This document shows positions 9,701 through 55,519 of a stretch of DNA of 64,000 bases, in pieces. The DNA comes from Nitrospinota bacterium. GTDB lineage: Bacteria; Nitrospinota_A; UBA7883; JACRLM01. The notes below the pieces were generated by a model, which was not told the origin of the DNA, ran no database searches, and saw only the letters and a program-made list of their open reading frames with translations. The stretch lies in assembly GCA_016208975.1 (NCBI GenBank), contig JACQXA010000004.1:869015-933014 (forward strand). The letters are read 5' to 3'. Every line of letters starts with the position of its first letter. Within the stretch, counting starts at the first letter, position 1. Both the position numbers and the translations under genes were made by a program.

Positions 9701-9863
9701 GCACAGCATGGGGATGAAAGTGGTGGCCGAAGGGGTGGAGACGGAAGAACAGCTCAATTTTTTAAAAGAGCACCGTTGCGACACCATACAGGGTTACTAT
9801 TTCGCCAAACCCATGCCAGCCGAGGAGTTCGAGGAGCTGTTGCGGCGCGGCGGCCAGTTTTAG
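6774..9863 (+). CDS. multi-PAS GGDEF-EAL cyclic-di-GMP protein
   Basis: About 1,030 residues with no transmembrane segment. In order: a Lys/Ala/Pro-rich basic tail of about 60 residues, two PAS domains, a coiled coil (about 325-365), two more PAS domains with PAC motifs, GGDEF (about 620-790) and EAL (about 800-1040). The diguanylate cyclase motif is intact (RIGGDEF) and is preceded at the right spacing by an RxxD inhibitory site (REED). The phosphodiesterase domain has EALLRW and DDFGTGYSSL. Both activities may therefore be live, set by PAS-sensed signals. A GTG at 6723 is an alternative start. The gene converges on, and overlaps by four bases, the next one. Confidence 0.93.
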   Translation: MKKSPTRANSALKKAGQKAATSGKPGRPAAGKKAPARAAKSAPARKTAPKAPSAPKGRKNDKYRILLENASDAILLADMEGKLKGANKKACQMLGYTSREIEKLHFTDIHPPETLEHAKNSFKEMAQTGFVYYHDGSILRKDGRRLPVDITATIVEIGGEKVAQGIFRDATVRKEAERALAESERKFRTSFENSTMGKALVSLNGEFIQVNNSFCWMLGYTRQELAGRLFQEFTHPDDLPAHLNFIRKIVGGHLESYQLEKRFTHKSGSTIWVILGVSMVIDPNGAPASLLFEAQDITQWKEYELELERRKNQLEDLTQERSAEVMEINDRLMRENAGRRAVEEALRRSEESLAIAQKITHIGNWDWDISANTLFWSDEIYRIFGLEPQEFGANYEAFVSYVHPEDRHVVQNEVEKALADPTGYYFVEHRVTRPGGEIRHVREEGQVFRDAAGAPTRMIGTVHDITEWKKYEERLVLATKVFENAAEGVMVTSDTGIIQFVNPAFTSITGYVPEEAIGHQPKILRSDRHSKDFYEDMWKTLTREGKWQGEIWNRRKDGEPYPEWLTITSIKDKMGRTTQYAAVFYDITELKRSQERIKYQANHDALTGLPNRTLFHDRLAVAMAHAHRHERKLAVLFIDLDNFKNINDSLGHAVGDILLQNIASRFALCAREEDTIARIGGDEFVILLEEIESEEAPLNVARRIIQTVSEPMYIRGHELYAGASIGVTIYPADGEDAETLLKNADTAMYRAKERGKNNFQLFTPSMNEKVVRRLGLENSLRKALDRDEMRVFYQPKVDVITRKLIGAEALLRWTPAGSKPVSPMEFIPVAEETGLIIRIGEWVMRATCDRTRRWMDMGWDSLVVSVNISARQLDQREFLDSTRAILEETALPPKMLEFEITESAVMSNINHAIDIMNRATQMGIGVSMDDFGTGYSSLSQLKKLPLNQLKIDKSFIHDVPEDKNAVAISLAIISMAHSMGMKVVAEGVETEEQLNFLKEHRCDTIQGYYFAKPMPAEEFEELLRRGGQF

Positions 9864-11677
9864 CCGGGCGTAACCAACCCCGCGTTCTTTAAATATTCGT
9901 AAAACGCCTCCGCCACCAGCCGGTTCCCCAGCGGCGACGCGTGGCCTATGAAATACGAGTCTATATCGTCCTGGTTACGCGCGTTTCGCGCCATGCCTTC
10001 CACGCCGTTGAAAACGCGATACCCCTTTTCCCCGCAATACGCAGTGATTTTTTCAACGGGGAAGCTTCCCCGCTTTTCCGCCCAATAATATTCCGCCTCG
10101 TCTTTTGTGGGCAGAACGGCTATCACCGGCTCGACCCCCATGGCGCGGGCGTCGGCCACGAAAGCGTCGAATATCCCGAAAAGCACATCCACTTCTCTGG
10201 AGCGCCAGATGTCTTGCAGATGGGCCGGGCGGGCTATCATGTCGTCTATCTGTTTATTGCCTTTCAGATAGTAAACCTCCAGCCAGAACCGCTTGTTCAG
10301 GAAAATCTTCAGGTAAGGGAACCCGAAAACCGGATAATCCCGCTGGTTGTAGATGTACCAGAAATCGTTCCGCCCTATCTTCTCAAGGAACGCCGGGTCG
10401 CCCAGTTTCTTTATCTCCCCCGCGTTTTCCACCGGGTTTGGGATTAGCTTAAGCTTCCCGTCTTCCATAATGAAACGTGGCTTTGCCATGGCGCCTTTGG
10501 TGGCCGGATAGTAGAACTTGCGGTACACGTTGGCCACCCGGCTTATGTTCTCCGGCACAAGGCACAGCGCGGCCACTTTGGTTTTCACCTTCGGCCAGTG
10601 CCGTTTGAACGCCAGATAAGCCTGGTCGGTGCCGTACCCGCCCACGCCGAAGTTATAAACGTTTTTGTTGAGCCTGGCCGCAAGGTAGGTCTCCCAAGTC
10701 TCATCATCGTCCACCTGGTCGCAATGGGTGAAGGAGTCGCCGAATGTGGCCATGAAACCTGTGGGGTACTCCACGGGCCGGGGCCGCTCACCGAACGGGG
10801 TTTGATAAAGCGGGCGCCAGCCCAACTGCCTGTCGTAACTTTTAGCCAGGCGGGTGGCGGTTTTCCCGTCCAACAGGTAACTGGAGAAATCGTAGAACGA
10901 AAACCTGTCTTTCGTGTAATGGAAGAAAATGGCCGCCATTCCCTCGGCCAGGGCAAGCGTTGAAAGCGCCATGGCCACACCGAAAAACGCTTTTTTTATA
11001 ATTGGGGATTTTTGCAACTCCCTTCCAGCCACCGGCAGAATGTAGAGCGCCAGCGCCATCAGGGAAACCGCCAAAATCCATTTGGCCCAATATTGGGGGA
11101 TGTGCCGCCATACTTCCCACGCCTCAGGCATGGGCCGGATGTTAACGCTATCCAGCGCTATCCAGGAGCCGGTTACAGAGCGGATGGCAATAACTCTACC
11201 GCTTCCCATGGCGGGGAGTTCCACCGTGTACTCCGCCGATTTGCCTTCGCTTTCCCACAGGGAGTCCGGAAGGCCCCGGCCTTTTTCGGTCTGAACGCTG
11301 GCTACCGTTGCGCCGTTAGCCAGAACGTCCAGCATAGGCGGGGCGGCCTCGTGGCTGTCCAGCGTTGAAATGGTCAAAATAGTTCCACCTGGATATGGAT
11401 TCTCGATATGGATTGTCTTCGGCGCGCCGCCAGCCCATAGGTCCAGCGGGCCCGGCAGTTGGGCCGGGATTAATGAATCTCCCGCCCTCACCGTCACGGC
11501 GCTCCGGCCATTCCAGTATCCGGCTCCGCGTCCAGCCTCATCCGCATAGAGGAATACGCCTTGCTGAGGATCAGCGAGAAGCGCGGATGATGAAAGAAAG
11601 ACCGCCGCCGCAAGAACCAACGGCGGCAAAACCCGTGCAAGGGTTTTAATGCGGTTTTTTATGAAGGATGAGTTCAT
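9860..11677 (-). CDS. membrane-anchored SGNH-hydrolase-like protein
   Basis: A 605-residue protein with a signal peptide or anchor (residues 15-35), an exported N-terminal domain of about 170 residues, two membrane helices (about 200-250) and a C-terminal SGNH-type domain. The nucleophile block is TFGDSFTHC (S315), block III is FGVGGYGTDQ, and the last block has D573 and H579 in DSYFIGHASPLGNR. Such domains are esterases or acyltransferases; membrane-tethered versions act in polysaccharide O-acetylation (AlgJ/AlgX-like). No MBOAT partner is nearby, so the substrate is unknown. Confidence 0.72.
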   Translation of the reverse strand: MNSSFIKNRIKTLARVLPPLVLAAAVFLSSSALLADPQQGVFLYADEAGRGAGYWNGRSAVTVRAGDSLIPAQLPGPLDLWAGGAPKTIHIENPYPGGTILTISTLDSHEAAPPMLDVLANGATVASVQTEKGRGLPDSLWESEGKSAEYTVELPAMGSGRVIAIRSVTGSWIALDSVNIRPMPEAWEVWRHIPQYWAKWILAVSLMALALYILPVAGRELQKSPIIKKAFFGVAMALSTLALAEGMAAIFFHYTKDRFSFYDFSSYLLDGKTATRLAKSYDRQLGWRPLYQTPFGERPRPVEYPTGFMATFGDSFTHCDQVDDDETWETYLAARLNKNVYNFGVGGYGTDQAYLAFKRHWPKVKTKVAALCLVPENISRVANVYRKFYYPATKGAMAKPRFIMEDGKLKLIPNPVENAGEIKKLGDPAFLEKIGRNDFWYIYNQRDYPVFGFPYLKIFLNKRFWLEVYYLKGNKQIDDMIARPAHLQDIWRSREVDVLFGIFDAFVADARAMGVEPVIAVLPTKDEAEYYWAEKRGSFPVEKITAYCGEKGYRVFNGVEGMARNARNQDDIDSYFIGHASPLGNRLVAEAFYEYLKNAGLVTPG

Positions 11678-12483: not shown

Positions 12484-13872
12484 TTATCCGTTCCGCTTGC
12501 CGTATTTCTGGATGTTGTCCCGGCTTATACGCACCAGTTCGCTTTCCGGCAGGATGGAAAGAAGCCTCCACCCTTCCGCCAGCGTTTCCTCGATGGATCT
12601 GCTTATCTCCCCCTGGTTTAAAAATTCCCGTTCGAACGCCTCGGCGAATTTCAGGTACACCCGGTCCATGTCCGACAAACCCTCTTCACCGATGATGGCG
12701 GCCACGCGCCTCTGCTCTTCCCCCCGGGCGTAGCACATATATATCTGGTCTGACCATTGTCTGTGATCCTCCCTGGTCCTCCCCGCGCCGATTCCGTGGT
12801 CCATCAGCCGCGAGAGGCTGGGCAACACGTTAATGGGCGGGAACACCCCTTTCCTGCTTAACCCCCGGTCCAGCACTATCTGGCCTTCAGTTATGTAACC
12901 GGTCAGGTCCGGCACGGGGTGGGTTATGTCGTCGTCGGGCATGGTCAATATGGGCAATTGGGTGACGGAGCCAACTTTACCTTCAATGCGCCCCGCCCGC
13001 TCGTATATCCCCGCCAGGTCGGTGTACATATAACCCGGATACCCGCGCCGCCCGGGAATTTCCTCGCGGGAAGACGATACTTCGCGCAGGGCGTTACAGT
13101 AATGGGTCATGTCCGTGAGGGCCACCAGCACCTGCATCCCCAGGTCGAACGCCAGGTACTCCGCCGTGGTCAGCGCGAACCGGGGCGTGAGTAACCGCTC
13201 TATCACCGGGTCATCCGCCAGGTTCAGGAACACCACCGAATGTTCTATGGCGCCGGAATATTCAAACGCCTGCTTGAAATAATCGGCCTCCCGCGAGGTT
13301 ATCCCCATTCCCGCGAAAACCAGGGCGAACCGCTCCCCCGGCCCGCTGACGCCAGCGTTGGCGATTATCATGGTGGCGATTTCGTTGGCGGGAAGGCCCG
13401 CTCCGGAGAAGATGGGAAGTTTCTGGCCGCGAACCAGGGTGTTCATGCCATCTATGGCGGAAACGCCGGTTTGAATGAAATCTTTCGGCATTGCCCGGCG
13501 GGTGGGGTTTAACGCGGAGCCGTTAATGTCCCGGCGCGCCATGGGCGGCGGTTTGGGCAGGCCGTCCAGCGGCTGGCCGCCTCCGGAAAAAACCCGGCCC
13601 AGCAGGAGAGGCGACAAGTCCACCTTGGCCCCCTCTTCGGAGAACCACACCAGCGTGGTGTCCGGGTTTATCCTTCCCGTGGGGCCGAACACCTGCGCCA
13701 CGGCCCATTTCTCGCTTATCTCGATAATCTGCGCGGGCCGCGTGTCCCCCTCGCCGATGACAATGCTCACTATGTCGCCTTGGGCGGCCCGTTCCGCCCG
13801 GCGTATGAACACCAGCGGGCCCTTCACCGAGTCTATCGTGCCAAACTGCCTTGAAAGAAGATCGCCACCCAT
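12484..13872 (-). CDS. atpB: A/V-type ATPase subunit B
   Basis: Regulatory, non-catalytic nucleotide-binding subunit B of the A3B3 head (462 residues). It has the N-terminal beta barrel, but the P-loop is degenerate ([16 protein letters not shown]), as expected for [19 protein letters not shown] and the C-terminal helical domain are typical. The gene name follows the archaeal/Thermus convention and is not the F-type atpB (subunit a). It lies four bases after subunit A. Confidence 0.97.
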
Positions 13873-13876
13873 CCGC

Positions 13877-15628
13877 CTATCTCCTTTCGCTTTCCACGTA
13901 CCGGACGAAAGCGGCTTTAAGCTCGCCTATAAGCGCTTCCAGTTCGTCTTCGGCAACCTCCTTGAGCCTCATCACCTGCTCCATTCCGGCGAACTTCATC
14001 ACCATCTCCGCCGTCAGCCCCTTGTCCACGGCGTCCGCCATTTTCTCCACAAAGAAAAGATACGCGTCCAGCATCAACGCCTGGCGCCGGGTGGAGCAAT
14101 AAGCGTCGGCGGGGCTGGCGGAGCTTTGCCGCAGATACCCCTCGCGCAGGAGCCGGGCCCCTTCAAGGATGACTTTCTCCCTGTCCTCCAGCGAATCCAT
14201 ACCGACTATCTTCACCACCTCCGAAAGCTCCTCCTCTTTCTGGAGCGTGGCGTGGATACTGCTCACCATCTCCCGCCATGCCGGGCTCACGTTCTGCTGG
14301 TACCACGTCCCCAGCGATGGATAGGTGAGGCTGAATGATATGCGCCAGTTTATGGCCGGGAAATGCCGCTGGTGCGCCAGGTCGTAATCTAGCCCCCAGA
14401 ACGTGGAGGCCATCCTCAACGACGCCTGGGTGACCGGCTCAGAAAAATCCCCCCCCGGCGGCGACACGGCGCCTATCACGGTGACGGAGCCTGTCTCCTC
14501 CGGCCTGCCCAAAAGCCTCGCCCGTCCGGCCCTCTCGTAAAACGCCCCCAGCCGGGAAGCAAGATAAGTGGGGTACCCTTCTTCCCCCGGTATTTCCTCC
14601 AGCCGCGAGGACATCTCCCGCAATGCCTCGGCCCAGCGGGAGGTGCTGTCGGCCAGCACGGTCACCTTGTAACCCATGTCCCGGTAATATTCGGCGATGG
14701 CCATGCCGGTGTATATGGAGGCCTCCCGCGCGGCCACGGGCATGTTGGATGTGTTGGCGATGAGGATGGTGCGCTCCATAAGCGGCCTGCCGGTGTGGGG
14801 GTCTATAAGCTTGGGAAGCTGGCTTAACGTATCGGCCATCTCGTTTCCCCGCTCGCCGCAACCGACGTATATGATTATGTCCGCCTGGGCGTATTTGGCT
14901 ATGGTCTGCTCCAAAACCGTCTTGCCGGAGCCGAACCCTCCGGGTATTATGGCCGCGCCCCCCTCGGCGATGGGGAACAGAGTGTCTATGACCCGCTGGC
15001 CGGTGATAAGGGGCGTGTTGAGCGGCAGACGCTCCAGCCGGGGCCTGGGCTCGCGCACGTTCCATTTCTGCCGCAGGGTTATCCGCTGGCCGTTGGTGAG
15101 GGTAACCGCCGTCTCTTCCACCGTAAGCTCCCCAACAGCCACCGTGGCCACCACGCCGGAAACATCTTTGGGAACCATAATGCGGTGGGTCACCCTTGGC
15201 GTTTCAGGAACAGTTCCCACCACCATGCCCCACTCCACATGGTCACCCGGTTTCACCGATGGGGTGAACTTCCATTTCCTGTTACGGTCCAGCCTTTTTA
15301 CGCGGGCGCCGCGCTGTATGAAATCCCCCCAGCGCTCCGCAAGCCTGGGCAAAGGGCGCTGGATGCCATCGAATATGGAGCCTATCAGGCCCGGCCCCAG
15401 TTCCACCGAGAGAAGCTCGCCAAGCCGCTCCACCGGGTCACCCACGGTAAGGCCCATTGTGTCTTCATACACCTGGATCACCGCCGTGTCCCCCTCTATG
15501 CGGATGATCTCCCCCATGAGTTTTTCGGAGCCCACCAGGGCCACCTCGCTCATAAAACAGCCGAACATCCCCCCGGCCACCACCGCCGGGCCGGAAACTT
15601 TTATTATGCGGCCGCCGCTTGCCGTCAC
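13877..15628 (-). CDS. atpA: A/V-type ATPase catalytic subunit A
   Basis: Catalytic subunit A, about 583 residues. The Walker A motif [12 protein letters not shown] is near residues 228-239, followed by the family-specific GCGERGNEM, and the bulge domain precedes it. I place the start at the GTG at 15628, which overlaps the subunit F stop (GTGA) and gives the conserved N-terminus [12 protein letters not shown]. An in-frame ATG at 15709 would lie inside the F gene and add 27 unconserved residues. Confidence 0.97.
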
Positions 15629-15969
15629 AGCTTTATCCTCATGTGGTAACCGATGGCGCGGAACGTGAGCCAGTCGGCCATATCCTCCGCCTCGCCGGTG
15701 AACCGCCACTGGCCCGGATATTCATACCTGGCCAGCAATGGGGTTACGCTTTTGCGAAGCGCTTTCTGGTTCCTGTCAGTGATCCATTCCTCCATCTGCG
15801 CCGGGATGGCCAGCACCCCCACGCCCCCTTCCGCCAGTATTTTTTCAATCTCGCCGTTAAGGGCTTCCGCGCCGGTCACCGGCACAACCTCCGCCCCGGC
15901 CAGGCGGAACCCGGCCTCCTGCCCCCAATAGGAGACAACCTTGATGGTCATCGGTTTGCCGGCGCTCAT
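15625..15969 (-). CDS. atpF: A/V-type ATPase subunit F
   Basis: Small central-stalk subunit F (about 114 residues), a Rossmann-like fold that binds subunit D and can modulate rotation. Visible features are a beta start (MTIKVVSYWGQEAGFRLAG), the GVGVLAIPAQMEEWI central strand and a C-terminal helix. The ATG at 15969 overlaps the subunit C stop (ATGA); an ATG two codons upstream at 15975 is possible. The sequence is divergent, and position in the operon supports the call. Confidence 0.9.
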   Translation of the reverse strand: MSAGKPMTIKVVSYWGQEAGFRLAGAEVVPVTGAEALNGEIEKILAEGGVGVLAIPAQMEEWITDRNQKALRKSVTPLLARYEYPGQWRFTGEAEDMADWLTFRAIGYHMRIKL

Positions 15970-16985
15970 TGCCATGCCCTTATAAAATGTTCGGCCGCGT
16001 CCCCCATGGGCGTGTGGGACAAACCGAAACTCAAAGCCAGATGAAGGTTCGATGCGTTTGCCGAAAGCTCTTCCATGAAAAAGATAAGCCCCCAGGGGCC
16101 TACAGGCTCTTTCAAACTGTGGCGGCGGTACTTGACATAGAACGCCCTGCGTAGTTCCATGTAAAAAAGGGTGGCCGAGTTTTCGGAGCCCCGCCGTGGT
16201 TTAGCCCCCAGCCTCTCTTTTATCACCTTGTGCGGCGTGTCCCCCTGGCCAAACGCCAGCGTCTCAAAATCCTCCCGGCGTATGAGCCCTCCGCCGTCAA
16301 TATAAAACTCCCGCAACTCCATGGGCCCCACGGAAGCCACCCGCGCCAGCATCGCGTTATTCACGTTGGCCATGTCCAGCTGGTCCCGGTAATACTCCCC
16401 TATCTGCCAAGGCAGATAACTTAGGCTCCGCAGGTATTTCGTGAAAAAATAGCGTTCAAGCCCCAATTCCGCATCCAGCGGGTTTTTCGCGAACAGCGCC
16501 GCGTCCAGCCCCGGCGCCAGCGGATGCCCGGCCTTTTTCATGAGTGTTATCAGCTCCGTTGCGGTTTTGTATCCGCCCCAGGCGGGGATGTTTTTAGGCT
16601 CGACAACCATCGGAGTAAAGCTGAACCTCCTGTCCTGGGAAAACCCGTCGCGCATAAGGTAGCGGATGGCCGATTTCAACTCTTCCAGCTCCCACCGCAT
16701 CACCAGCGCCCTTCCCACGGTACTGTCCATATCTATCACCAGTTCGGCGAACCTGCGTTTTAGCCGCGCCAGCCCTTCGTTTATCACCCGCTCCATCAGC
16801 GCCGGGGTCGGCCGTAAACCGCCGCGCCTTATGATCTCCTCCATCTCCCGGGCGTAAACAGAGCTTTCTATAAGCTCCAGGGCGGGCTTTAAATCCCCCA
16901 CCTCCAGAACCTTCATAAGCTCCTGCGGCGATACCAGGCGGCTCTTTATGGCCGCCAGCCGCGCCGTTACGTACTCAGCCTCCAT
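15966..16985 (-). CDS. atpC: A/V-type ATPase subunit C
   Basis: Subunit C (AC39 family, 339 residues) forms the funnel linking the central rotor shaft to the c-ring. It is mostly alpha-helical in three repeats. Helical stretches such as YFFTKYLRSLSYLPWQIGEYYRDQLDMANV, given here only as the start and end of one repeat, match the family pattern. It overlaps subunit E by 19 bases and subunit F by four, which indicates tightly coupled translation. Confidence 0.93.
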   Translation of the reverse strand: MEAEYVTARLAAIKSRLVSPQELMKVLEVGDLKPALELIESSVYAREMEEIIRRGGLRPTPALMERVINEGLARLKRRFAELVIDMDSTVGRALVMRWELEELKSAIRYLMRDGFSQDRRFSFTPMVVEPKNIPAWGGYKTATELITLMKKAGHPLAPGLDAALFAKNPLDAELGLERYFFTKYLRSLSYLPWQIGEYYRDQLDMANVNNAMLARVASVGPMELREFYIDGGGLIRREDFETLAFGQGDTPHKVIKERLGAKPRRGSENSATLFYMELRRAFYVKYRRHSLKEPVGPWGLIFFMEELSANASNLHLALSFGLSHTPMGDAAEHFIRAWQ

Positions 16986-17557
16986 CCGGCGGACTCCGTT
17001 AAACGGTTCACAAATTCGTTTCCCCTGGCGCGCCAGAGTTTTTCAAGCCTGGTCTCAAGAAGACACAGCCACTTTCTTCTGCCTCCGCCGGTGGACGCCA
17101 CAAAGCCGCATGCCACATTTTCATCCACCGCTATTTTTTCCGGCCCTCCCAGCGACCTTATAATTTCAGCGGTCACCGCATCGGCCCTGACTTCCTCCAA
17201 CTCCCCCGCCTCGGCCCTCACTGTTTCCAATTCACGCGCCACATATTGCCCGTATGCCGGTGAACCCATGAATTCTTGGAATAGACCGCGGGCCTCTTTC
17301 TTCACCGCTTGCGCCGCGGCGTCTTGCGCCTCAAGCATGGCCTCGCGCCGCGCCATCCTTTCCCGCGCCAGGCGCAACGCGTCCCGCCGGGATTCCATCA
17401 ACTGCCGTTTCAGGTCTATCTCCCGCTGGATTGCGGCGCTCTTCTCCCGGGCGGCCACCGCCACTTCCTCCGCTTTTACGGCCGCCTCTTCCAGGATGGA
17501 GCGCTCTTTTATCTCCGCCTCCAGCCTCAGCGCGGAAAGCAGTTTTTCAACGCTCAT
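16967..17557 (-). CDS. atpE: A/V-type ATPase subunit E
   Basis: Peripheral-stalk subunit E (196 residues). The first 100 residues are a charged coiled coil (EAEIKERSILEEAAVKAEE onwards) that pairs with subunit G. The C-terminal globular domain holds the head (SLGGPEKIAVDENVACGFV region). It overlaps subunit K by four bases (ATGA) and subunit C by 19. Here atpE means the stalk subunit, not the F-type c subunit. Confidence 0.93.
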   Translation of the reverse strand: MSVEKLLSALRLEAEIKERSILEEAAVKAEEVAVAAREKSAAIQREIDLKRQLMESRRDALRLARERMARREAMLEAQDAAAQAVKKEARGLFQEFMGSPAYGQYVARELETVRAEAGELEEVRADAVTAEIIRSLGGPEKIAVDENVACGFVASTGGGRRKWLCLLETRLEKLWRARGNEFVNRLTESAGWRLST

Positions 17558-17766
17558 TTGTAAATAAGCAGAACGGCGATGACGAATCCGAGTATCACCA
17601 TGGTCTCAGGGATGGCCACCAGGATGATCATCAGCCCCGACACTTCTTTTTTCTCCACGATGGCGCCCACCGCCGCCGAGCCTATCCTGCCTTGGGCCCA
17701 GGCTGTAGCGAACGCGGTGAACCCTATGGCCAACGCCGCGCCCAATGTTGTCCAGTCCAATTCCAT
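17554..17766 (-). CDS. atpK: A/V-type ATPase c-ring subunit K
   Basis: Proteolipid of 70 residues with a single helical hairpin: TM1 about 9-36, polar loop EKKEVSG (38-44), TM2 about 45-69. The ion-carrying carboxylate is E54 in AIPETMVILG. Q25 lies 29 residues before it in WAQGRIGSAA, and T55 follows it. The Q110 to E139 spacing of the Na+-binding NtpK of Enterococcus is also 29, so a Na+ site is possible. Most bacterial V-type K subunits are double hairpins; this is the short form. It is also called L. Confidence 0.95.
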   Translation of the reverse strand: MELDWTTLGAALAIGFTAFATAWAQGRIGSAAVGAIVEKKEVSGLMIILVAIPETMVILGFVIAVLLIYK

Positions 17767-17785
17767 AAAATGCCTCCTTTGCGTT

Positions 17786-19654
17786 TTAAGGTCTGCCCAG
17801 CGGCGAATAAGCTACGCCGCCGGAGGTGTAGAACCGGCTGAAGAACTCCACGTAATGAAGACGGATAGCCTGTATGGCCGGGCTGAAAACGCCCATCACA
17901 AAGTTAACGCCGTGAATCAGCGCCGCCGCCAGCGCCCCGGCCACCGCCCACTCTATTGTCTTGTTTATCTCCCCGGCCACGTCGGCCATAATCACCGACG
18001 CCAGCCCCAGCGCCATGAGCCTGGCGTAGGAAAGCATATTGGAAATTATCCTTGGCGCCTCCAGCAACCCCTCCGATAAGCCCACCGCCGCCACCCTTAC
18101 GGCCAGCGGAACAAGCGGGAGGAAATATGTCCACTTTGGCCCACCGGTGATGGCGGAAAAACCCGCCAGTAGCGCTGAAACTATAAATCCGAAATCGGCC
18201 AGCCGCTCCAGCGCATGGCGGCTCCGCTTTAGCCGTCTCTCCGCGAAGAAACCTATAAGACTCCCCAACGCCAGATGCATCCCTCCTGCGGCAAGAACCA
18301 GCATGAGCGTGAATACCACCTCATGTTTCCTGTCCAGCAACGGCGGCCAAAGATGGGCGGCGCCGAATATCTCGCAGAACAGCAGGCCGAACAGGGCCGA
18401 TTGGGCCGCGCAAAGGTAAATGATTTTCGACATGTCCAGAGCCAGGGAATCCTCGGCGAATTTCCATCGCAACCCTGTCCCCACAGCCGCCAGCAATAAC
18501 GCGTAACCCACGTCCCCCAGCATGAATCCGAAAAGCATGGGCATGGTGAAAGCTATGAGCGCCGAAGGATCCACCCCGCCGTACATCGGCGTGGCGTACA
18601 GATGGATTAGCCTTTCGAAGGGCCTGGCCCAGCTCCGGTTCTCAAGCTTTACCGGGGTTTCGGGAAATTCCGCAAGGCCGGGCCGGGCCGAATATAAAGC
18701 CACCGCTCCGCCAAATTCCCGCGCTACGGCGTCTTTTAACCGGGGCATCTCATCGGTAGGCACCCATCCGGATATCCAAAAGGTCATACCCGACGTGGCC
18801 AGATGCCCCTGCGAGCGCAAAAGCTCCGCGTACTGGCGCAGGCCCCGTTCAGCCGCCTTTATCGGCTCCAGCCATCTGGTGGAAAGCTCCACAAGCCTCG
18901 CCGAAGCCTCGCGGCGTTCTTTTTCCAGCTCCCGCTCCCGGGTGTACAAATATTTGAGCGTGGTGGCGAAAGTGCCTTTCTCGTATTTTTCCGGCAGGCG
19001 CACCGGCTGGACCTTGTGGCCGAACGCGCGCCGCCGCACCTCTTCGCCGATGGACTCGGGATATATGAGCAGAGCCGAAGATCCTTCGCCATTGGCCTTG
19101 CCCCGGAATATTGCGCAGGCGCCACCGGTGATCTCCTCCATGGTCAGCCGCATCTCGTTGAACATGTCCTCATAACCGGCGGTGAGGGTAACACCGGTTA
19201 TCTCCATGCCCCGGAACGCGGACGCCTTCTCCAACAGCGGCTGGAACTCCTCGAAAAGCTCCCGGTAGGCGTTGGCCTCTTTTTGTTCCGCCACCAGCGA
19301 CTCCAGCTTTTGGGCGGTTTTGGGAACCTCCTCCAGGACCTCCATCACGGATTTGCCCGAGGCGTAGGCCAGCCATTGGCTTTCATGCTGGAAAACCGGG
19401 GCAGGCTCCCGGGGCTCCTGTGGCGGAAGGTAAGTGACCGCTTCGGCCATCAGGTTAATGAGGCTCTCAGCCAGTTTCAGGTTGCTCTCCTCACCGGCGG
19501 GCAAAACCCCGTGTTCAAATGAAGCTTCTTTTAATAACTGGTCGCTGGCGGATGGCGTGACGTGAAAAACCCGATGGGCGAAAAGCAGGGCCAGCAGGCG
19601 CGCGGCGGCGGATTTGGGGCCCGCTATCCTGGTTCGCTCCATGGAGGCTATCAT
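17786..19654 (-). CDS. atpI: A/V-type ATPase subunit I (stator a)
   Basis: Subunit I (622 residues, 116-kDa/NtpI family) provides the static half-channels beside the c-ring. Residues 1 to about 330 are cytosolic and stalk-binding, with coiled-coil segments. The C-terminal half has about seven to eight membrane helices, beginning near YGGVDPSALIAFTMPMLFG, and ends with GGVAYSPLGRP. The ATG at 19654 overlaps the subunit G stop (ATGA). This is not the F-type assembly protein AtpI. Confidence 0.95.
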   Translation of the reverse strand: MIASMERTRIAGPKSAAARLLALLFAHRVFHVTPSASDQLLKEASFEHGVLPAGEESNLKLAESLINLMAEAVTYLPPQEPREPAPVFQHESQWLAYASGKSVMEVLEEVPKTAQKLESLVAEQKEANAYRELFEEFQPLLEKASAFRGMEITGVTLTAGYEDMFNEMRLTMEEITGGACAIFRGKANGEGSSALLIYPESIGEEVRRRAFGHKVQPVRLPEKYEKGTFATTLKYLYTRERELEKERREASARLVELSTRWLEPIKAAERGLRQYAELLRSQGHLATSGMTFWISGWVPTDEMPRLKDAVAREFGGAVALYSARPGLAEFPETPVKLENRSWARPFERLIHLYATPMYGGVDPSALIAFTMPMLFGFMLGDVGYALLLAAVGTGLRWKFAEDSLALDMSKIIYLCAAQSALFGLLFCEIFGAAHLWPPLLDRKHEVVFTLMLVLAAGGMHLALGSLIGFFAERRLKRSRHALERLADFGFIVSALLAGFSAITGGPKWTYFLPLVPLAVRVAAVGLSEGLLEAPRIISNMLSYARLMALGLASVIMADVAGEINKTIEWAVAGALAAALIHGVNFVMGVFSPAIQAIRLHYVEFFSRFYTSGGVAYSPLGRP

Positions 19655-24606: not shown

Positions 24607-25785
24607 TTAGTAGTACAGGACGGTCCTGAAAGCCAGCCGGGTGGGATCGTCGCTGGTGCCGTCCAGGTCCTGCTTCTCATACTCCAGGGTGAACACGAAA
24701 GCGTCCACATGCAGGCGAACGCCGAGGTCGTAACCGGTGTTCTTCTTCTCGCTGGCGCCTTTGCTCTTGATCTCGTCCCAGCCCTGGTAGCGGCCGATGA
24801 GTTCGAGGGTGTTCGGAACCAGGAAGTAGCCGAGGCGGGCATAGTAACCCTTCACCTCGTAACCGCCGGCCAGGGTGTCCTTGTCGGCCCCTTTCAAGGC
24901 GGCGTACTCACCGTCGATCCACAGGCCCAGGTCTTTCACGTCCAGCTTGGCGCCCACGGAGTACATGGAGCGGTCCAGATCCACCACCACTTTGGAAGAG
25001 GAGGAGGAAACGGCGCCGGTGGTAAGGTCGGCGGTGGAGGAGGTCACGTTAACAACGGCGTTCTCATGCTTGTTGATACCGTAACCGGCGTTGATGCGGA
25101 GGCCTTCCACCGGGGTCAGGATCAATGCCGCAGTGTAAGCCGCGTCCATGGTGCCGTTGGCCCAAATGGCTTTGGAGCCGGAGATGGAGCCGCCCACGTC
25201 GCCGTTGTTGCCGTAACCGTTGGTGGCGGTGATGCGCAAGTCAGCCATGCCGCCGAGCTTCTTGAACACCAACTCCACGCCGCGGTCGCGGGTGTTGTTG
25301 CCGGAGTCGGCCAGGAAGCTGGTCATCTGCTTTTTACCGGCCTGGTAAACATCGAGGTTCTCGATCTTGCCGCCGGAGGTTATACCCACTTCGTAGGTGC
25401 CGTAGGGGCGCATCTGGCCGATGTTGATGTCGAGAACGTCGCCGAGCGGGCGGAGGGTTATCCAGCCTTCAACGAAAGCGACCGAGCTGTTGGAGCCGGA
25501 GCCGTCGAACAGCACGTTATAGCCCAACACTTTGTCGGCCAGGTCGCCCTTGGCGCCAAGGCGCATCTGTTTAATCTGGAAACCGAAGGACTTGTCTTTC
25601 CCCTTCTCCCCGGAAGAGTCGGTGGCGGTGTTGAAAGCGCTCTCATCGAGAATGCCCCACACTGTGGCGTAACCGCCCACTGAATTGTTGTCGTTCACCT
25701 TGAAGGCGTAGGCGCCATTCGTGGTGAGGGTGATGGCCGCCATCATGGCGAAAGCCATCAATGCGAATCTCCTCATCGCGCTCAT
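24607..25785 (-). CDS. outer-membrane porin, OprO/OprP-like
   Basis: About 392 residues: signal peptide (cleavage after NGAYA), then alternating beta-strand character throughout and a C-terminal aromatic end (VLYY) typical of barrel insertion signals. MTSFLADSGNNTRDRGVE and NGYGNNGDVGG are characteristic of the phosphate/polyphosphate-selective porin family. The substrate here is not proven. I start it at the ATG at 25785, which sits behind AGAGGT at the right distance; an upstream in-frame start at 25833 lacks a ribosome-binding site. It is a single-gene unit with its own terminator. Confidence 0.88.
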   Translation of the reverse strand: MSAMRRFALMAFAMMAAITLTTNGAYAFKVNDNNSVGGYATVWGILDESAFNTATDSSGEKGKDKSFGFQIKQMRLGAKGDLADKVLGYNVLFDGSGSNSSVAFVEGWITLRPLGDVLDINIGQMRPYGTYEVGITSGGKIENLDVYQAGKKQMTSFLADSGNNTRDRGVELVFKKLGGMADLRITATNGYGNNGDVGGSISGSKAIWANGTMDAAYTAALILTPVEGLRINAGYGINKHENAVVNVTSSTADLTTGAVSSSSSKVVVDLDRSMYSVGAKLDVKDLGLWIDGEYAALKGADKDTLAGGYEVKGYYARLGYFLVPNTLELIGRYQGWDEIKSKGASEKKNTGYDLGVRLHVDAFVFTLEYEKQDLDGTSDDPTRLAFRTVLYY

Positions 25786-25830
25786 TTTCTTAAGACCTCT
25801 TAGAATGTTAAAAGGAAAATATAAGACGCT

Positions 25831-25864
25831 CACGGCGCAGGTTCGCCTCTTAACCTGCTCCGTG
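25831..25864 (-). promoter_or_regulatory. stem-loop upstream of the porin gene
   Basis: In the 301-base gap between the porin and the EI24 gene, CACGGcGCAGGTT (25831-25843) pairs with AACCTGCtCCGTG (25852-25864): 12 of 13 bases around an eight-base loop, 46-79 bases ahead of the porin ATG. It could be a leader structure or an operator. The rest of this gap is AT-rich and shows nothing else I can name. Confidence 0.4.
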
Positions 25865-26845: not shown

Positions 26846-27802
26846 ATGGACGTTTCCTTCGATAAAGAGATAATCCGCTTTTATCTTTCGTTTAACGACC
26901 CGGCAAGCTTCATCCTTGCCCCCATGGTGAAAAACCTCTCCCACGCCTATAAAGTGGATGTGGAATACATCCCCGTAACCACTTTTGACCGCACGGGGCT
27001 TTTTTCCATAAACGAGGCAGAGCGCAGGTATTACATCAGAGACATAGGGCGTTTTTCCAAAAAGGCGGACAGGAAACTAAATTATATAGACCAGCCGCTG
27101 GACTGCCGGAAAGCCTGCCTTGGCCGGTTCTACGCCGATGAAAAGATGCTGGGGCTTAAATACATCAACCTGGTGATGGCCGCCCGGTGGCTGGGCGCCA
27201 AAGACATTTCAAATACCGGGGCGATCGCCGAGTCGGTCAAGTTCATCGAACTGGGCGGAACCGGGCTTGCCATGGCGCTGGAGACTTCATTGTACGAAAC
27301 AGCCCAGGCCGAGGCGGAGGCCGGGGCCGTTAAGGACGGCGTAATTGGCGTTCCGTTCATGGTTTTCCGGGGCGAGGGTTTTTTTGGGGCGGACAGGCTC
27401 CCTTACCTTGAAGACGTTATAAAGTCCGACCCGTCTCTTATAGTCCATCATGACGCAAGCTACTCGGTAATAAGCCCCGGTGAAATGGCCGAAAAGGTGA
27501 AAAACAACGAGCCCCTTTTGGCGCTGGATGTACGTATTCCCAAAGATTTCGGGCAGGGGCATATTCCGGGGGCCAACTGCCTTCCCGCCAAGATCGTTTA
27601 CCGCAACATGAACAGGCTGGACCGCGACTGGACCATCATAGTGGTGGACGAAGGTGGCGTGGAGGCCAGCGAAGTGGCTTTCGCCCTGGCGGGCGCGGGT
27701 TTTGGCAAAGTGGCCGTGTTGTCCGGGGGCATGAAACTGTGGAACGGGGCCGTGGAAACCGGCCTGGACAAATGGCAGGACAAGTTAAAAACCGTAAAAT
27801 GA
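26846..27802 (+). CDS. HCCA-isomerase-like thioredoxin fold fused to degenerate rhodanese
   Basis: 318 residues. Residues 5-200 match the DsbA-like/HCCA-isomerase/kappa-GST fold, with the N-terminal IRFYLSFNDPASF motif and the C-terminal GVPFMVFRGEGFFGADRLPYLEDV. The usual catalytic Ser or Cys before the cis-proline-like SP is Asp (D18). Residues 205-315 are a rhodanese domain (ALDVRIPKDFGQGHIPGAN and LSGGMKLW), but the active-site loop reads VVDEGGVEAS without the catalytic cysteine. Both domains may therefore bind rather than catalyse. The stop overlaps the next gene (ATGA). The function is unknown. Confidence 0.75.
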   Translation: MDVSFDKEIIRFYLSFNDPASFILAPMVKNLSHAYKVDVEYIPVTTFDRTGLFSINEAERRYYIRDIGRFSKKADRKLNYIDQPLDCRKACLGRFYADEKMLGLKYINLVMAARWLGAKDISNTGAIAESVKFIELGGTGLAMALETSLYETAQAEAEAGAVKDGVIGVPFMVFRGEGFFGADRLPYLEDVIKSDPSLIVHHDASYSVISPGEMAEKVKNNEPLLALDVRIPKDFGQGHIPGANCLPAKIVYRNMNRLDRDWTIIVVDEGGVEASEVAFALAGAGFGKVAVLSGGMKLWNGAVETGLDKWQDKLKTVK

Positions 27803-40290: not shown

Positions 40291-40321
40291 AAAAAGGGCC
40301 TCCACCCGAAGGTGGAGGCCC
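40291..40321 (-). terminator. Rho-independent terminator of the cytochrome-porin gene
   Basis: An 11-bp perfect stem, GGGCCTCCACC (40296-40306) with GGTGGAGGCCC (40311-40321), loop CGAA. On the minus strand it is followed by TTTTTATTT. A strong terminator for the gene ending at 40347. Confidence 0.9.
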
Positions 40322-40346: not shown

Positions 40347-41546
40347 TTAGAAGCCGGCGAATACCATGACGGTGAGCTGGTTGTCCTTGCTCCGGCCATC
40401 TTCGCTGTACACAGTGTACTCCGGCGTGATGGACACGTTCTGGGCCAGGTTCCAGGTCAGCTTGCCAGTGATAGCGGAGGTCTTCAGGTCGGAAGAGCCG
40501 CTCTTATCAGTGGTGTTGCCATAAGCCAGGCCAAGCACCAGAGCCTTGCTCAGGCCGAGCTCGGCCTGCGCGGAGAGGTAGTCACCCTTTTTGTACATCA
40601 CGTCATTCGCGGAGACGGTGACATACTGGGCCTGCAGCTCGAGGGTCATGCCACCCACGTCGCCCTGGGCCTGGAGGTCAACACCGAGAGCTTCGGTTTT
40701 GACTTCGGCGATGGCGGTGCCATCGAGGCCGAGGTTGCCGCAGTTGCCGCATTTGGTCTTGCCAGCGGTGCCGAACACGCCGATGAGGGTGTCAAAACCA
40801 CCCAGGGTCGGCATAACAGCCACGCGATAGGAAGTGGACAGGTCGAACCCGGTGTCCGGGCCTTCGATGGCCGGGCCCCAGAGGCCGACGGCGGCGAATA
40901 TCAGGCCGGTGTTGGCGTACAGGGTAAGACCGGTCACCTCGCCGTCACCCAAGCCGGAAGCCTGAGCGGCGGAGGTCTCTTTCCTGTGCTCGAAAGCGCG
41001 GGCAGAGCGGACAACGCCGGTGTTGGAGAGGTCCATGCCCCAGAAAGGCCCAAGGGCGTCGGTAGCGAAAGCCACCAAGCCGGCCCTTACGTCACCCACG
41101 GTGCCGGTGAAGACAACCTTGGAGGACACGGCAGGCCCGGGGAACTCTACGGCGTAACCCACGTTCTTGCCAGCGCGGCCGGCGAACCAGGCGGCGGCTT
41201 CATCATAAACCTGCCACTCACCGCGCTCCAGACCCACTTTCGGATCGGAAGACGTTTTGTTGGTGGCCTGCTGGTAGCGATACTTGATCACGAAGGACAC
41301 CGGAGCGGTAGCCGGAACGGACACCAACTCGTCCTCGATCAGGTCCACAGCGGCGTCAGTGAAACCGCCAGCTTTGAACGAGCGCCCGAAAGCGTTCAGT
41401 TTCGGGATGTGCTGATAGTGACAGCTAAAGCAGGGCAGGTTCATCTGCCGGGCAAATGACGGAACCGCCGCGCTCTCCTTCGGCGTCACCATCACGCCCA
41501 TCATGGCGAACGCCATGACCGACATAACGACAAAAAGTTTCTTCAT
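40347..41546 (-). CDS. outer-membrane cytochrome-porin fusion, Cyc2-like
   Basis: 399 residues. A signal peptide (to about residue 27) is followed by a short cytochrome segment, PSFARQMNLPCFSCHYQH, with one CxxCH heme site (C39-H43), then PKLNAFGRSFKAGG. The rest is beta-rich and ends in aromatic VFAGF, so it should be an outer-membrane barrel. This layout is that of Cyc2, the outer-membrane Fe(II) oxidase of iron-oxidising bacteria, though many uncharacterised relatives share the FARQ-CxxCH-LNxFGRxFK motif. A second CxxC without His (KCGNCGN, about residue 265) may sit in a loop. A GAGGAGG ribosome-binding site is present. It is divergent from a small cytochrome c. Confidence 0.8.
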   Translation of the reverse strand: MKKLFVVMSVMAFAMMGVMVTPKESAAVPSFARQMNLPCFSCHYQHIPKLNAFGRSFKAGGFTDAAVDLIEDELVSVPATAPVSFVIKYRYQQATNKTSSDPKVGLERGEWQVYDEAAAWFAGRAGKNVGYAVEFPGPAVSSKVVFTGTVGDVRAGLVAFATDALGPFWGMDLSNTGVVRSARAFEHRKETSAAQASGLGDGEVTGLTLYANTGLIFAAVGLWGPAIEGPDTGFDLSTSYRVAVMPTLGGFDTLIGVFGTAGKTKCGNCGNLGLDGTAIAEVKTEALGVDLQAQGDVGGMTLELQAQYVTVSANDVMYKKGDYLSAQAELGLSKALVLGLAYGNTTDKSGSSDLKTSAITGKLTWNLAQNVSITPEYTVYSEDGRSKDNQLTVMVFAGF

Positions 41547-42180
41547 TTAAACACGCCTCCTCAAAAAGTTAACTTAAGGCACCTAGACATATATTTCACA
41601 CCCGCTCTGTAACCGGGTTTGAAATCACTGTGGACAGCTCGAATTGATGAGTTCTATTAATACACCCCTCTGCTCACCACTATAAGCGTGGGACAATTTT
41701 TATTACATTCAACACTTAATGTCAAGTCTAAATGTTAATTTTTGATTTGCCGGAAACCTGCCCCCTTATGAGGCTACTAATAGATGTCCAGGGTGGAAAG
41801 CGATTTGCGCCCGCAATTTCAACACCTGGGGCCTGTACATATGCGCGCAAAAGCTGTGGATAGAAAGCATCAACGCCCGCGGAGGCCATATAAAGAGCCT
41901 TTGAGCCCAAAATTTCCTTGACAGAGAACTGGTCAAAGTTTAGGATTTGGGCCTTAGTCAAACTATATAACGCCGCGCATCCGGCCGCTTTAACTTTTGT
42001 ACCGGTATAAAGCGGGTTCGCTTACGCGGACACCGGCGTTGACGGGGGAATCCGGATGCTCTTTGGCTGACCGCTAAAATTATCTTTTGTCCTATTTGTT
42101 GGGGTAACACCGCGCGGGCTTTTTTGTCTGTAAAAATCCGCGAGGTTACGATAAATCCTTAACCGTTTTGGAGGAGTTTC
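41547..42180. other. 634-base gap between divergent cytochrome genes
   Basis: AT-rich sequence (especially 41640-41760) that must hold the promoters of both cytochrome genes. Ribosome-binding sites for each lie at its ends (GAGGAGG and GGAGGAG). GCATCCGG near 41974 and CCGGATGC near 42052 form a distant inverted pair. I saw no convincing gene, tRNA or terminator. Confidence 0.5.
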
Positions 42181-42564
42181 ATGAAGAAACACATTTTGGG
42201 CATGGTTACCGTTTGTTTCGCTATGGTGGTGGCCTTCGCCGGCTTCGCTTCCGCCGGGGACGCTGGCAAGGGCGAAGGGGTTTTCAAGGGCAAGGGCCAG
42301 TGCAAAAACTGCCACAAGCTCGATGATAAGAATTCCGTTGGCCCCGGCCTCAAAGGCGTGACCGCCAGGCATAACGACGAATGGCTTGGCAAATGGCTGG
42401 CCGACCCGCAGAAAACCTGGGAAGGTAACGACGCCGATGTACAGAAGCTGAAAACCTGGAAACCCGGCCGTGACAAGGCCGCGAAAACCGCTATGAAGAT
42501 CCCCGCTCTTTCCGCCGAGGAAGTTGCGGACCTGATAGCGTTCCTGCATCAGAACGACAAATAA
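42181..42564 (+). CDS. periplasmic class I cytochrome c
   Basis: 127 residues: signal peptide (cleavage after FASAG, about residue 25), heme motif CKNCH (41-45), GPGLKGV loop, and the distal ligand M105 in MKIPALSAEEVADLIAFL. This is a mono-heme c-type electron shuttle. It is transcribed away from the cytochrome-porin and could carry electrons between that protein and inner-membrane complexes. The ribosome-binding site GGAGGAG is strong and a terminator follows, so it is a one-gene unit. Confidence 0.94.
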   Translation: MKKHILGMVTVCFAMVVAFAGFASAGDAGKGEGVFKGKGQCKNCHKLDDKNSVGPGLKGVTARHNDEWLGKWLADPQKTWEGNDADVQKLKTWKPGRDKAAKTAMKIPALSAEEVADLIAFLHQNDK

Positions 42565-42593
42565 GCGTTTCCCGCTTATTTAGTTAAAAAACG

Positions 42594-42623
42594 CCCCGGC
42601 GGTAACCATCGCCGGGGTTTTTT
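42594..42623 (+). terminator. Rho-independent terminator after cytochrome c
   Basis: CCCCGGCG (42594-42601) pairs with CGCCGGGG (42610-42617) around an eight-base loop and is followed by TTTTTT. A textbook terminator for the cytochrome gene. Confidence 0.92.
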
Positions 42624-53729: not shown

Positions 53730-54689
53730 GTGCTGGCCTTAAAACTCGATAACGTCATAACCCTTGACCGGGATTACCCCGTTCCAGCAACTAACCCCGG
53801 CGAGGCGCTTATCCGCCCCACCCTGGCGGGGATATGCAATACGGACCTGGAACTGGCCAAAGGTTACATGGGTTTTAAGGGCGTGCTGGGCCATGAGTTC
53901 GTGGGAGTGGTGGAACAGTCGGACGAATCGAGGTTCGTCGGAAAGCGGGTGACAGGCGAGATAAACTGCCCCTGTGGTAATTGTAACATGTGCCGGACAG
54001 GCTTGGGCAACCATTGCCCCAGCCGCACGGTGCTGGGGATAGTCAACCGCGACGGCGCTTTTTGTGAACGGTTCGTTCTGCCAAACGCCAACCTGCATGT
54101 CGTGCCGGATTCTGTAAGCGACAGGCAGGCGGTATTCACCGAGCCTCTGGCGGCGGCGTTCCAGATAAACAACCAGGTTCCCATAGGGCCGTTCCACAAA
54201 GTGGCGCTGTTGGGGGACGGCAAGCTGGGGTTTCTGATAGCGCAGACGCTGGCCATTACCGGATGCGGCTTGACGGTAGTTGGGCGGCATCCTGAGCGGC
54301 TGGAATTTTTGAAGACAAAAGGGGTGGAGTTTAAGACGGAAAGCCAGACGCAAACCCTTGGTCGCGCCTTTGATGTGGTGGTGGACGCCACCGGTTCCCA
54401 AACCGGCCTTGCCACGGCGGCGCGGCTGGTAAAACCCCGGGGGGTTATAGTGCTTAAAACCACCGTGGCCCAGCCTGGCGGGTTTGACTTGAACCAACTG
54501 GTGATAGACGAAATAACCGTCACCGGCTCCCGGTGCGGCCCTTTTGTGGAGGCGCTGGCGGCCCTGGAAAAAAACCTGATCGAAACCGGGCCGCTTATAG
54601 CCTCGGCGCAACCGCTGGAAAACGGCGTGGAGGCCATGAAAATGGCCGCGCAAAGCGGCGGGCGGAAGATTTTGCTGAAAATAAGCTGA
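53730..54689 (+). CDS. zinc-dependent MDR-family dehydrogenase
   Basis: 319 residues from a GTG start. The catalytic zinc site is represented by C36 in AGICNTDLEL and LGHEFVGVVE. The structural zinc cluster is four cysteines in CPCGNCNMCRTGLGNHC. The Rossmann domain has LLGDGKLGFLIAQ, in which the usual GxGxxG is GDGKLG, then VVDATGSQTGL. It is shorter than classical alcohol dehydrogenases. The substrate cannot be told, and the neighbours give no hint. Confidence 0.88.
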   Translation: MLALKLDNVITLDRDYPVPATNPGEALIRPTLAGICNTDLELAKGYMGFKGVLGHEFVGVVEQSDESRFVGKRVTGEINCPCGNCNMCRTGLGNHCPSRTVLGIVNRDGAFCERFVLPNANLHVVPDSVSDRQAVFTEPLAAAFQINNQVPIGPFHKVALLGDGKLGFLIAQTLAITGCGLTVVGRHPERLEFLKTKGVEFKTESQTQTLGRAFDVVVDATGSQTGLATAARLVKPRGVIVLKTTVAQPGGFDLNQLVIDEITVTGSRCGPFVEALAALEKNLIETGPLIASAQPLENGVEAMKMAAQSGGRKILLKIS

Positions 54690-54736
54690 TAATATATCCG
54701 TAGTAACTTATTTTTAAATCGAAGGCGTAACCATAG

Positions 54737-55519
54737 ATGCATCCTGTACTTTTTGAGTTCGGCCCCATAACCATCCACACTTATGGCCTGTTGGTGGCTT
54801 CCGGGTTTATGCTGGGCATCGCCTGGACAGCCAGGCTGGGCAACAAAGAGGGGTTCGATCCCCAGGTGGTTTACGACACGGCGTTCTGGCTGGTGCTTTC
54901 GGCTATCCTTTCGTCCCGCCTGGCCTACGTCATAGTTGAATATAAACATTTCGCCACCCATCCGCTGGACATCGTAAAATTCTGGGAAGGGGGCCTTGTG
55001 TTTTACGGCGGCGTTATTGGCGCGGTTTTGGCCCTTTACATCTGCGCGAAAAAATACGGCTTTAACTTGTGGAAGTTCGGCGACATCGCCGCGCCGGGGG
55101 TGGCCCTGGGGCATGTGCTGGGCCGGCTGGGCTGTTTCTTCGCAGGTTGCTGTTACGGGCAAGAGACAAACGTGCCATGGGCGGTCACCTTCCGCGATGT
55201 AAAATCCATCGCCCCACTGGACGTGCCGTTGCATCCCACCCAGCTTTACGATGCGCTCAACGAGCTTATAGTGTTCGGCATTTTGACACTCATCAGGCCA
55301 TACAAGAAATTTAACGGCCAGATATGGTGGACATGGGTTGGCCTTTATTCTTCGGGCCGGATAGTGGTGGAATCTTTCCGGGGCGATCCCAGGGGGTTCT
55401 GGTTCCATGGTCTATTGTCCACCTCGCAAATACTTGGCGCCCTGGGTGTAACCCTGGCTATCGCCATGTATTTTAAAAAGCGGAAAGACGCCGCCGGGGC
55501 CGATGCCGGAAGGGATTAA
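54737..55519 (+). CDS. lgt: prolipoprotein diacylglyceryl transferase
   Basis: 260 residues, seven membrane helices. It attaches diacylglycerol from phosphatidylglycerol to the lipobox cysteine of prolipoproteins. Conserved elements are FGPITIHTYGLL, the Lgt signature as GHVLGRLGCFFAGCCYGQET near residue 125 and HPTQLYDAL. The signature carries Cys pairs where Asn is usual. It overlaps rluD by 17 bases. Confidence 0.97.
   Translation: MHPVLFEFGPITIHTYGLLVASGFMLGIAWTARLGNKEGFDPQVVYDTAFWLVLSAILSSRLAYVIVEYKHFATHPLDIVKFWEGGLVFYGGVIGAVLALYICAKKYGFNLWKFGDIAAPGVALGHVLGRLGCFFAGCCYGQETNVPWAVTFRDVKSIAPLDVPLHPTQLYDALNELIVFGILTLIRPYKKFNGQIWWTWVGLYSSGRIVVESFRGDPRGFWFHGLLSTSQILGALGVTLAIAMYFKKRKDAAGADAGRD

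Follow-up and report, generated by a model that had tools for sequence, protein, structure and literature searches.

Does the frame on the reverse strand of this Nitrospinota contig encode a genuine Cyc2, and is the cytochrome c gene that stands divergently beside it a dedicated partner? We addressed these questions in a window of 64,000 nucleotides (the whole stretch of DNA that was analysed). A reading made from the sequence alone had proposed a mono-heme segment fused to an outer-membrane barrel, and this is what we recovered: a 399-aa frame with one CFSCH and a 16-strand model. The features of both genes are listed in Table 1.

Table 1. Window positions of cyc2, its divergent cytochrome c neighbour and their predicted elements.
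Feature	Positions	Strand	Basis
cyc2, 399-aa fused monoheme cytochrome-porin (Cyc2)	40347..41546	(-)	ORF, full-length homologues, trees, model
Signal-peptide-like N-terminus of Cyc2, residues 1-27, MKKLFVVMSVMAFAMMGVMVTPKESAA	41466..41546	(-)	sequence inspection only
AVPSFARQ, the AXPXFAR[Q/K] motif of Cyc2; next residue Met, not Thr/Tyr	41445..41468	(-)	motif definition PMC8406198
CFSCH, residues 39-43, single haem c attachment site of Cyc2	41418..41432	(-)	ORF and alignment
PKL, the PXL motif, exactly four residues past CXXCH	41397..41405	(-)	motif definition PMC8406198
Predicted 16-strand outer-membrane barrel, residues 83-398	40353..41300	(-)	AlphaFold2 model; Foldseek: OprP, OprO, Omp38, OmpT
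KCGNCGN, residues 265-271, a CxxC particular to the clade, in the loop joining strands 9 and 10	40734..40754	(-)	alignment and model
cyc2 intrinsic terminator, 11-pair stem and T run	40296..40321	(-)	terminator search
127-aa periplasmic class I cytochrome c, divergent neighbour of cyc2	42181..42564	(+)	ORF, Pfam, similarity to solved domains
CKNCH of the 127-aa cytochrome c	42301-42315	(+)	
Candidate distal ligand Met105 of the 127-aa cytochrome c	42493-42495	(+)	inferred from sequence
Intrinsic terminator of the 127-aa cytochrome c gene	42593..42618	(+)	terminator search

The Cyc2 family has been defined by a signal peptide, one CXXCH, an AXPXFAR[Q/K][T/Y] motif upstream of it, a PXL motif four residues downstream, a minimum length of 365 residues and the fusion to a barrel of 16 strands (PMC8406198). 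The query protein, at 399 aa against this minimum of 365, presents its elements in the order signal-like stretch, AVPSFARQM-NLP-CFSCH-YQHI-PKLNAFGRSFK, porin-like region and terminal Phe. It contains exactly one CXXCH, near the N-terminus, and C39, C42 and H43 are invariant in 12 aligned relatives (alignment A1). Eight of the nine positions of the upstream consensus are matched (AVPSFARQ), the ninth being occupied by Met. This ninth letter also varies in other members of the clade (FARQM, FARQQ, FARQV), and all nine letters are present in L037 and L038, two relatives that are 54-56% identical to the query. A strict motif screen in the style of PMC8406198 would drop the query Cyc2 over this single letter. 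The signal-like N-terminus and the C-terminal Phe were recognized by eye, and the protein is probably located in the outer membrane. Pfam and NCBIfam returned no family match for the porin and phmmer found no solved relative of it, so that the identification as Cyc2 rests on homologues, motif and fold.

The frame is not a chance product, because an independent Nitrospinota genome encodes a full-length homologue with 62-63% identity (tblastn, E 1e-167) and other full-length homologues exist in Gallionellaceae, Zetaproteobacteria and further groups; full-length tblastn relatives were found in Gallionella, Sideroxydans, Mariprofundus, Thiodiazotropha and Sulfurimonas. A scan through genomes of 84,980 species, using patterns that favour FARQ-type sequences, yielded 287 relatives. 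The best 80 of these 287, most of them alignable over nearly the full length of the query, were first of all other Nitrospinota, then Myxococcota-type 'Deltaproteobacteria', symbiotic Gammaproteobacteria, Sulfurimonas, Gallionella, Sideroxydans and Mariprofundus. In a tree with bootstrap values, the query and four Nitrospinota sequences form a group (99/97), which is joined by one further relative from the same order (97/91); this whole set lies in a 71-row clade (99/99) that also holds Gallionellaceae, Sideroxydans and Mariprofundus. Other Cyc2-like paralogues, whose haem motifs differ (FAKKY-type), branch outside it. The Cyc2 identity put forward by the sequence-only reading withstood the two checks named there as able to overturn it, since the query clusters inside a Cyc2 clade and its model has a barrel, and that the query is a true Cyc2 is well supported. 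The Gallionellaceae/Zetaproteobacteria group corresponds to cluster 1 (PMC7029218, PMC8406198); since the tree was built without Acidithiobacillus and Leptospirillum Cyc2 (clusters 2 and 3), the cluster number given to the query comes from the Gallionellaceae and Mariprofundus proxies and from the published grouping.

Cyc2 has already been reported in Nitrospinota: that of bins from this phylum falls in cluster I (PMC9769843), cyc2 is listed in other bins (PMC11442690, PMC11995701), and there are cyc2 calls in Nitrospinaceae/UBA8639 MAGs (PMC11995701). The query Cyc2 is therefore not new for the phylum, but a solid and expected find. Two of its relatives, L040 and L044, are loci from bins of the Southwest Indian Ridge dive (PMC9769843), and are presumably the sequences drawn in that study.

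Modelling of the barrel, which the sequence-only reading had called for, was performed with AlphaFold2. The model contains 16 barrel strands (mean pLDDT 66.6, pTM 0.71), with the haem segment (residues 1-80) at pLDDT below 50. When it was compared with solved structures by Foldseek, the best matches were general porins and OprP/OprO, and a search of viral structures produced generic porins only.

The model also gives a position to a second cysteine pair, KCGNCGN, which had been described as unusual at the outset. From the parity of the strands, it is predicted to sit in extracellular loop 5. A CxxC is found at this site in the query and in the five full-length relatives of the same order (L035, L036, L037, L038, L040), as well as in two partial ones (L015, L029); the sister-family relative L044 has a CxxxC. 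It is absent from all other full-length proteins of the tree. The loop is real, and its CxxC is, in this sample, conserved within and limited to the order of the query. KCGNCGN is not a haem site because no His follows. The simplest reading is a disulfide; a metal site is possible.

Gene content was examined one family at a time in the query genome, a 2.97 Mb assembly of four contigs with a listed completeness of 100%. Terminal oxidases and a reverse-electron chain, whose presence in the genome was of interest from the start, have candidates here. ccoN and ccoO of a cbb3 oxidase score above the curated cut-offs. A CtaD-like (aa3-like) subunit reaches 485 bits, which is below the cut-off and was scored on a partial sequence; its gene adjoins apparent genes for the synthases of haem A and haem O. 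The genome also encodes cytochrome b and a Rieske protein, and the citrate-binding domain of ATP-citrate lyase is above its cut-off. With cytochrome c oxidases, the Rieske/cytochrome b pair and the ATP-citrate lyase domain in its genome, the organism could plausibly run an iron-oxidising chain. As no match to the MtrB/PioB barrel (PF11854) was obtained in the genome, there is, at this sensitivity, no rival multihaem conduit of the MtrAB/MtoAB/PioAB type. As to nitrite oxidation as the main way of life, the type II DMSO-reductase-family model gave no match above cut-off in the genome, but whether it reliably picks up the Nitrospina-type nitrite oxidoreductase is unproven. With a codon adaptation of 0.639, cyc2 takes rank 10 of 92 local genes (local median 0.550; dnaK 0.722), while the genome's three other Cyc2-like genes are at ranks 40, 53 and 64. 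The reference set consisted of L2, L4 and L23 only (575 codons), and the ranking is to be taken as a hint.

One cluster 1 Cyc2 has been shown to oxidise Fe(II) (PMC8406198). By family and gene content, Fe(II) oxidation is likely to be the function of the query protein and is its best reading. With regard to the initial proposal of iron oxidation or extracellular electron exchange, the Cyc2 identity, the oxidases and the cytochrome b/Rieske pair stand on direct findings, and Fe(II) as the substrate is an extrapolation from them. Taken together, we think it probable that the query is a neutrophilic 'cluster 1' type Cyc2 in Nitrospinota, acting as an Fe(II) oxidase that feeds oxidases and CO2 fixation. 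In such a scheme, the 16-strand barrel would lie in the outer membrane with the haem segment plugging its periplasmic side. Dissolved Fe(2+) would enter the pore and hand one electron to the single haem, from which a soluble periplasmic cytochrome c (the product of the divergent gene or a paralogue) would deliver it to an oxidase of the cbb3 or aa3 type. Some of the electrons could travel uphill in energy, by way of the cytochrome b/Rieske complex and a presumed complex I, and might feed CO2 fixation by a reductive TCA cycle if the organism is autotrophic. The direction of electron flow and the identity of the periplasmic carrier are equally presumptive.

A more specific version of this route, compatible with the Fe(II) oxidase reading, would make the divergent cytochrome c the dedicated redox partner of Cyc2, the two genes forming an outer-membrane-to-periplasm module. 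The neighbour has the class I cytochrome fold: it matches Pfam Cytochrom_C (PF00034) with 37.5 bits against a cut-off of 21.3, and resembles solved c552 and the N-terminal domain of ActA, a subunit of alternative complex III. It is also immediately adjacent and divergently oriented, and shares with cyc2 an intergenic region of 634 bases with two weak promoter-like sites, where 0.8 are expected by chance. Because a strong intrinsic terminator follows each gene and only weak promoter-like sites lie between them, both look like single-gene transcripts; Rfam gave only sub-threshold hits around the two genes. The distribution of homologues argues against a dedicated partner. Each of the 22 relatives searched has homologues of the 127-aa cytochrome c, even those in which no full-length Cyc2 was detected, but in none of the 22 was one seen beside cyc2, and no listed copy is on a cyc2-bearing contig. 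Some of these contigs span a few kilobases only, but the length of several (43, 50 and 134 kb) is sufficient for the result to carry weight. Among the loci around cyc2 genes elsewhere, fetched with several kilobases on each side, the neighbours were unrelated and a single weak match to the 127-aa cytochrome c was found. A second copy of the cytochrome, moreover, is encoded elsewhere in the query genome. A conserved two-gene module of cyc2 and cytochrome c was therefore rejected, the homologues being located elsewhere in the relatives examined. Within our sample, the adjacency is particular to the query genome. Of the pairing suggested by the sequence-only reading, the divergent periplasmic class I cytochrome holds and the conserved unit is not supported, as relatives keep their homologues elsewhere and each gene has its own terminator. 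The 127-aa protein may carry electrons from Cyc2, for which adjacency is weak evidence, and we are rather doubtful that it is a dedicated partner.

Elsewhere in this genome, a divergent 426-aa Cyc2-like protein (ALSQWARKY...CFTCH...PRL; L158:8798-11092, contig C4:598797-601091) is encoded directly ahead of a class I cytochrome c and then a NapC/NirT-like trihaem cytochrome, apparently in one operon. If a compact route from the outer membrane to the quinones is sought, this set is a stronger candidate than the cyc2/cytochrome c pair. A 451-aa Cyc2-like paralogue with AIPAFSKKY and CSACH (L157:9448-10800, contig C4:2117447-2118799) groups with other members of the class, outside the Cyc2 clade of the query.

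The family alone does not fix the substrate, because Cyc2 is among the proteins proposed for Mn(II) oxidation in Ca. Manganitrophaceae (PMC9040806). The query could accordingly have the architecture of Cyc2 and accept electrons from Mn(II), from another soluble reductant or from an electrode-like surface in a chemolithotrophic biofilm, and the order-specific CxxC in the predicted extracellular loop could indicate a different metal preference. We regard this as unlikely: Fe(II) is oxidised by those Cyc2 proteins that PMC8406198 names as biochemically tested, the nearest company of the query in the tree includes Cyc2 from families known to oxidise iron, and an MtrB/PioB-type porin was not found in the genome.

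The analysis also brought out a group of shorter Cyc2-like proteins. The frame of one of them, of 339 aa, ends about 50 bases to the left of the first base of the window (contig C4:867949-868965; L156:9950-10966). It contains AMPSYAR and CFSCH and has no PXL. Comparison of the profile of this family with the Cyc2 alignment gave a probability of 99.95% (E 1.4e-37), in which the short proteins retain the haem segment but lack the PXL stretch and the first strands. Of 12 genomes from the query's order, 11 contained a short paralogue. None turned up in the 12 genomes searched from the rest of the phylum, nor in 26 genomes from other groups that carry Cyc2, where the weak matches were ordinary full-length Cyc2 only. 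They appear to constitute an order-specific family of about 320-340 aa, which falls below the limit of 365 residues that FeGenie applies to Cyc2 (PMC8406198). In four short-form genomes of the order, of which three are less than 95% complete, no full-length Cyc2 ortholog was found. A structure model of a short paralogue was too poor to interpret (mean pLDDT 35.5). The full-length and short genes lie in tandem on the same strand at L040:6001-8423, and they are likewise neighbours in G008 (L031). It is conceivable, but in our estimation quite unlikely, that the order runs an unrecognised iron-oxidising outer membrane, in which a Cyc2 with an order-specific extracellular CxxC, serving in metal capture or as a redox switch, works beside a short cytochrome-porin of perhaps 12 strands overlooked by length filters. 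Very unlikely, finally, is an accessory role of the query Cyc2, serving not growth but the detoxification of iron, the sensing of metals or an occasional spill of electrons: many homologues belong to organisms for which iron oxidation is not known, and other functions are possible (PMC8406198), cyc2 stands alone outside any respiratory operon, and some members of the order have the short paralogue without a detected full-length Cyc2, but the codon adaptation of cyc2 exceeds the local median, oxidases and a reductive TCA marker are present in the genome, and stand-alone cyc2 genes are also reported in Acidithiobacillus (PMC10654088).

Several other genes of the window are worth recording. A haem-less outer-membrane protein (24610-25833, minus strand), with a weak match to phosphate-selective porin O/P (19.9 bits, cut-off 20.9), has the second-highest codon adaptation among local genes. 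Subunits A, B, C and I of a V/A-type ATP synthase are clustered at 12484-19654 (minus strand), and a DsbA-like thioredoxin domain and a rhodanese domain are joined in a single frame at 26846-27802 (plus strand). Two long frames of 514 and 605 aa (53867-55408 and 9863-11677, both minus strand) had no Pfam match at E 0.01.

Nitrospinota are known above all as nitrite oxidisers, and the present analysis adds to them a near-complete four-contig genome whose Cyc2 is well supported. Since Cyc2 occurs there together with terminal oxidases and an ATP-citrate lyase domain, and an MtrB-type conduit was not detected, this genome offers a clean case in which lithotrophic iron oxidation by the phylum could be tested. 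Two features set the order apart from the Cyc2 proteins characterised so far in concrete ways, namely the CxxC of the predicted extracellular loop, specific to the clade, and the family of short paralogues, and the Met after FARQ and the short paralogues illustrate that published screening rules (the motif letter, the 365-aa limit) lose relatives.

Among known systems, the closest to the query are the cluster 1 Cyc2 proteins of Gallionellaceae, Sideroxydans and Mariprofundus ferrooxydans PV-1. Like these, it has a signal-like N-terminus, AXPXFARQ, a single CXXCH with PXL four residues on, a length of about 400 aa and a 16-strand barrel; it can be aligned with them end to end and falls in one clade with Gallionellaceae and Mariprofundus. 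It differs from them by an identity of about 30-33%, by the Met after FARQ and by the CxxC pair in predicted extracellular loop 5, which the cluster 1 references lack. The cluster I Cyc2 of the Southwest Indian Ridge MAGs (PMC9769843) is of the same family and the same phylum; L040 and L044 are 43 and 41% identical to the query in their best segment, whereas their genomic surroundings differ. Cyt572 of Leptospirillum (cluster 3) and Cyc2 of Acidithiobacillus ferrooxidans (cluster 2), compared by literature description, are likewise fused monohaem cytochrome-porins, for which a distant resemblance is expected. The phosphate-selective porins OprP and OprO, also used as templates for the characterised Mariprofundus Cyc2 (PMC8406198), have a similar barrel fold (Foldseek TM-score 0.51-0.56 on query length), but are devoid of the haem segment and share only 12-13% sequence identity with the query.
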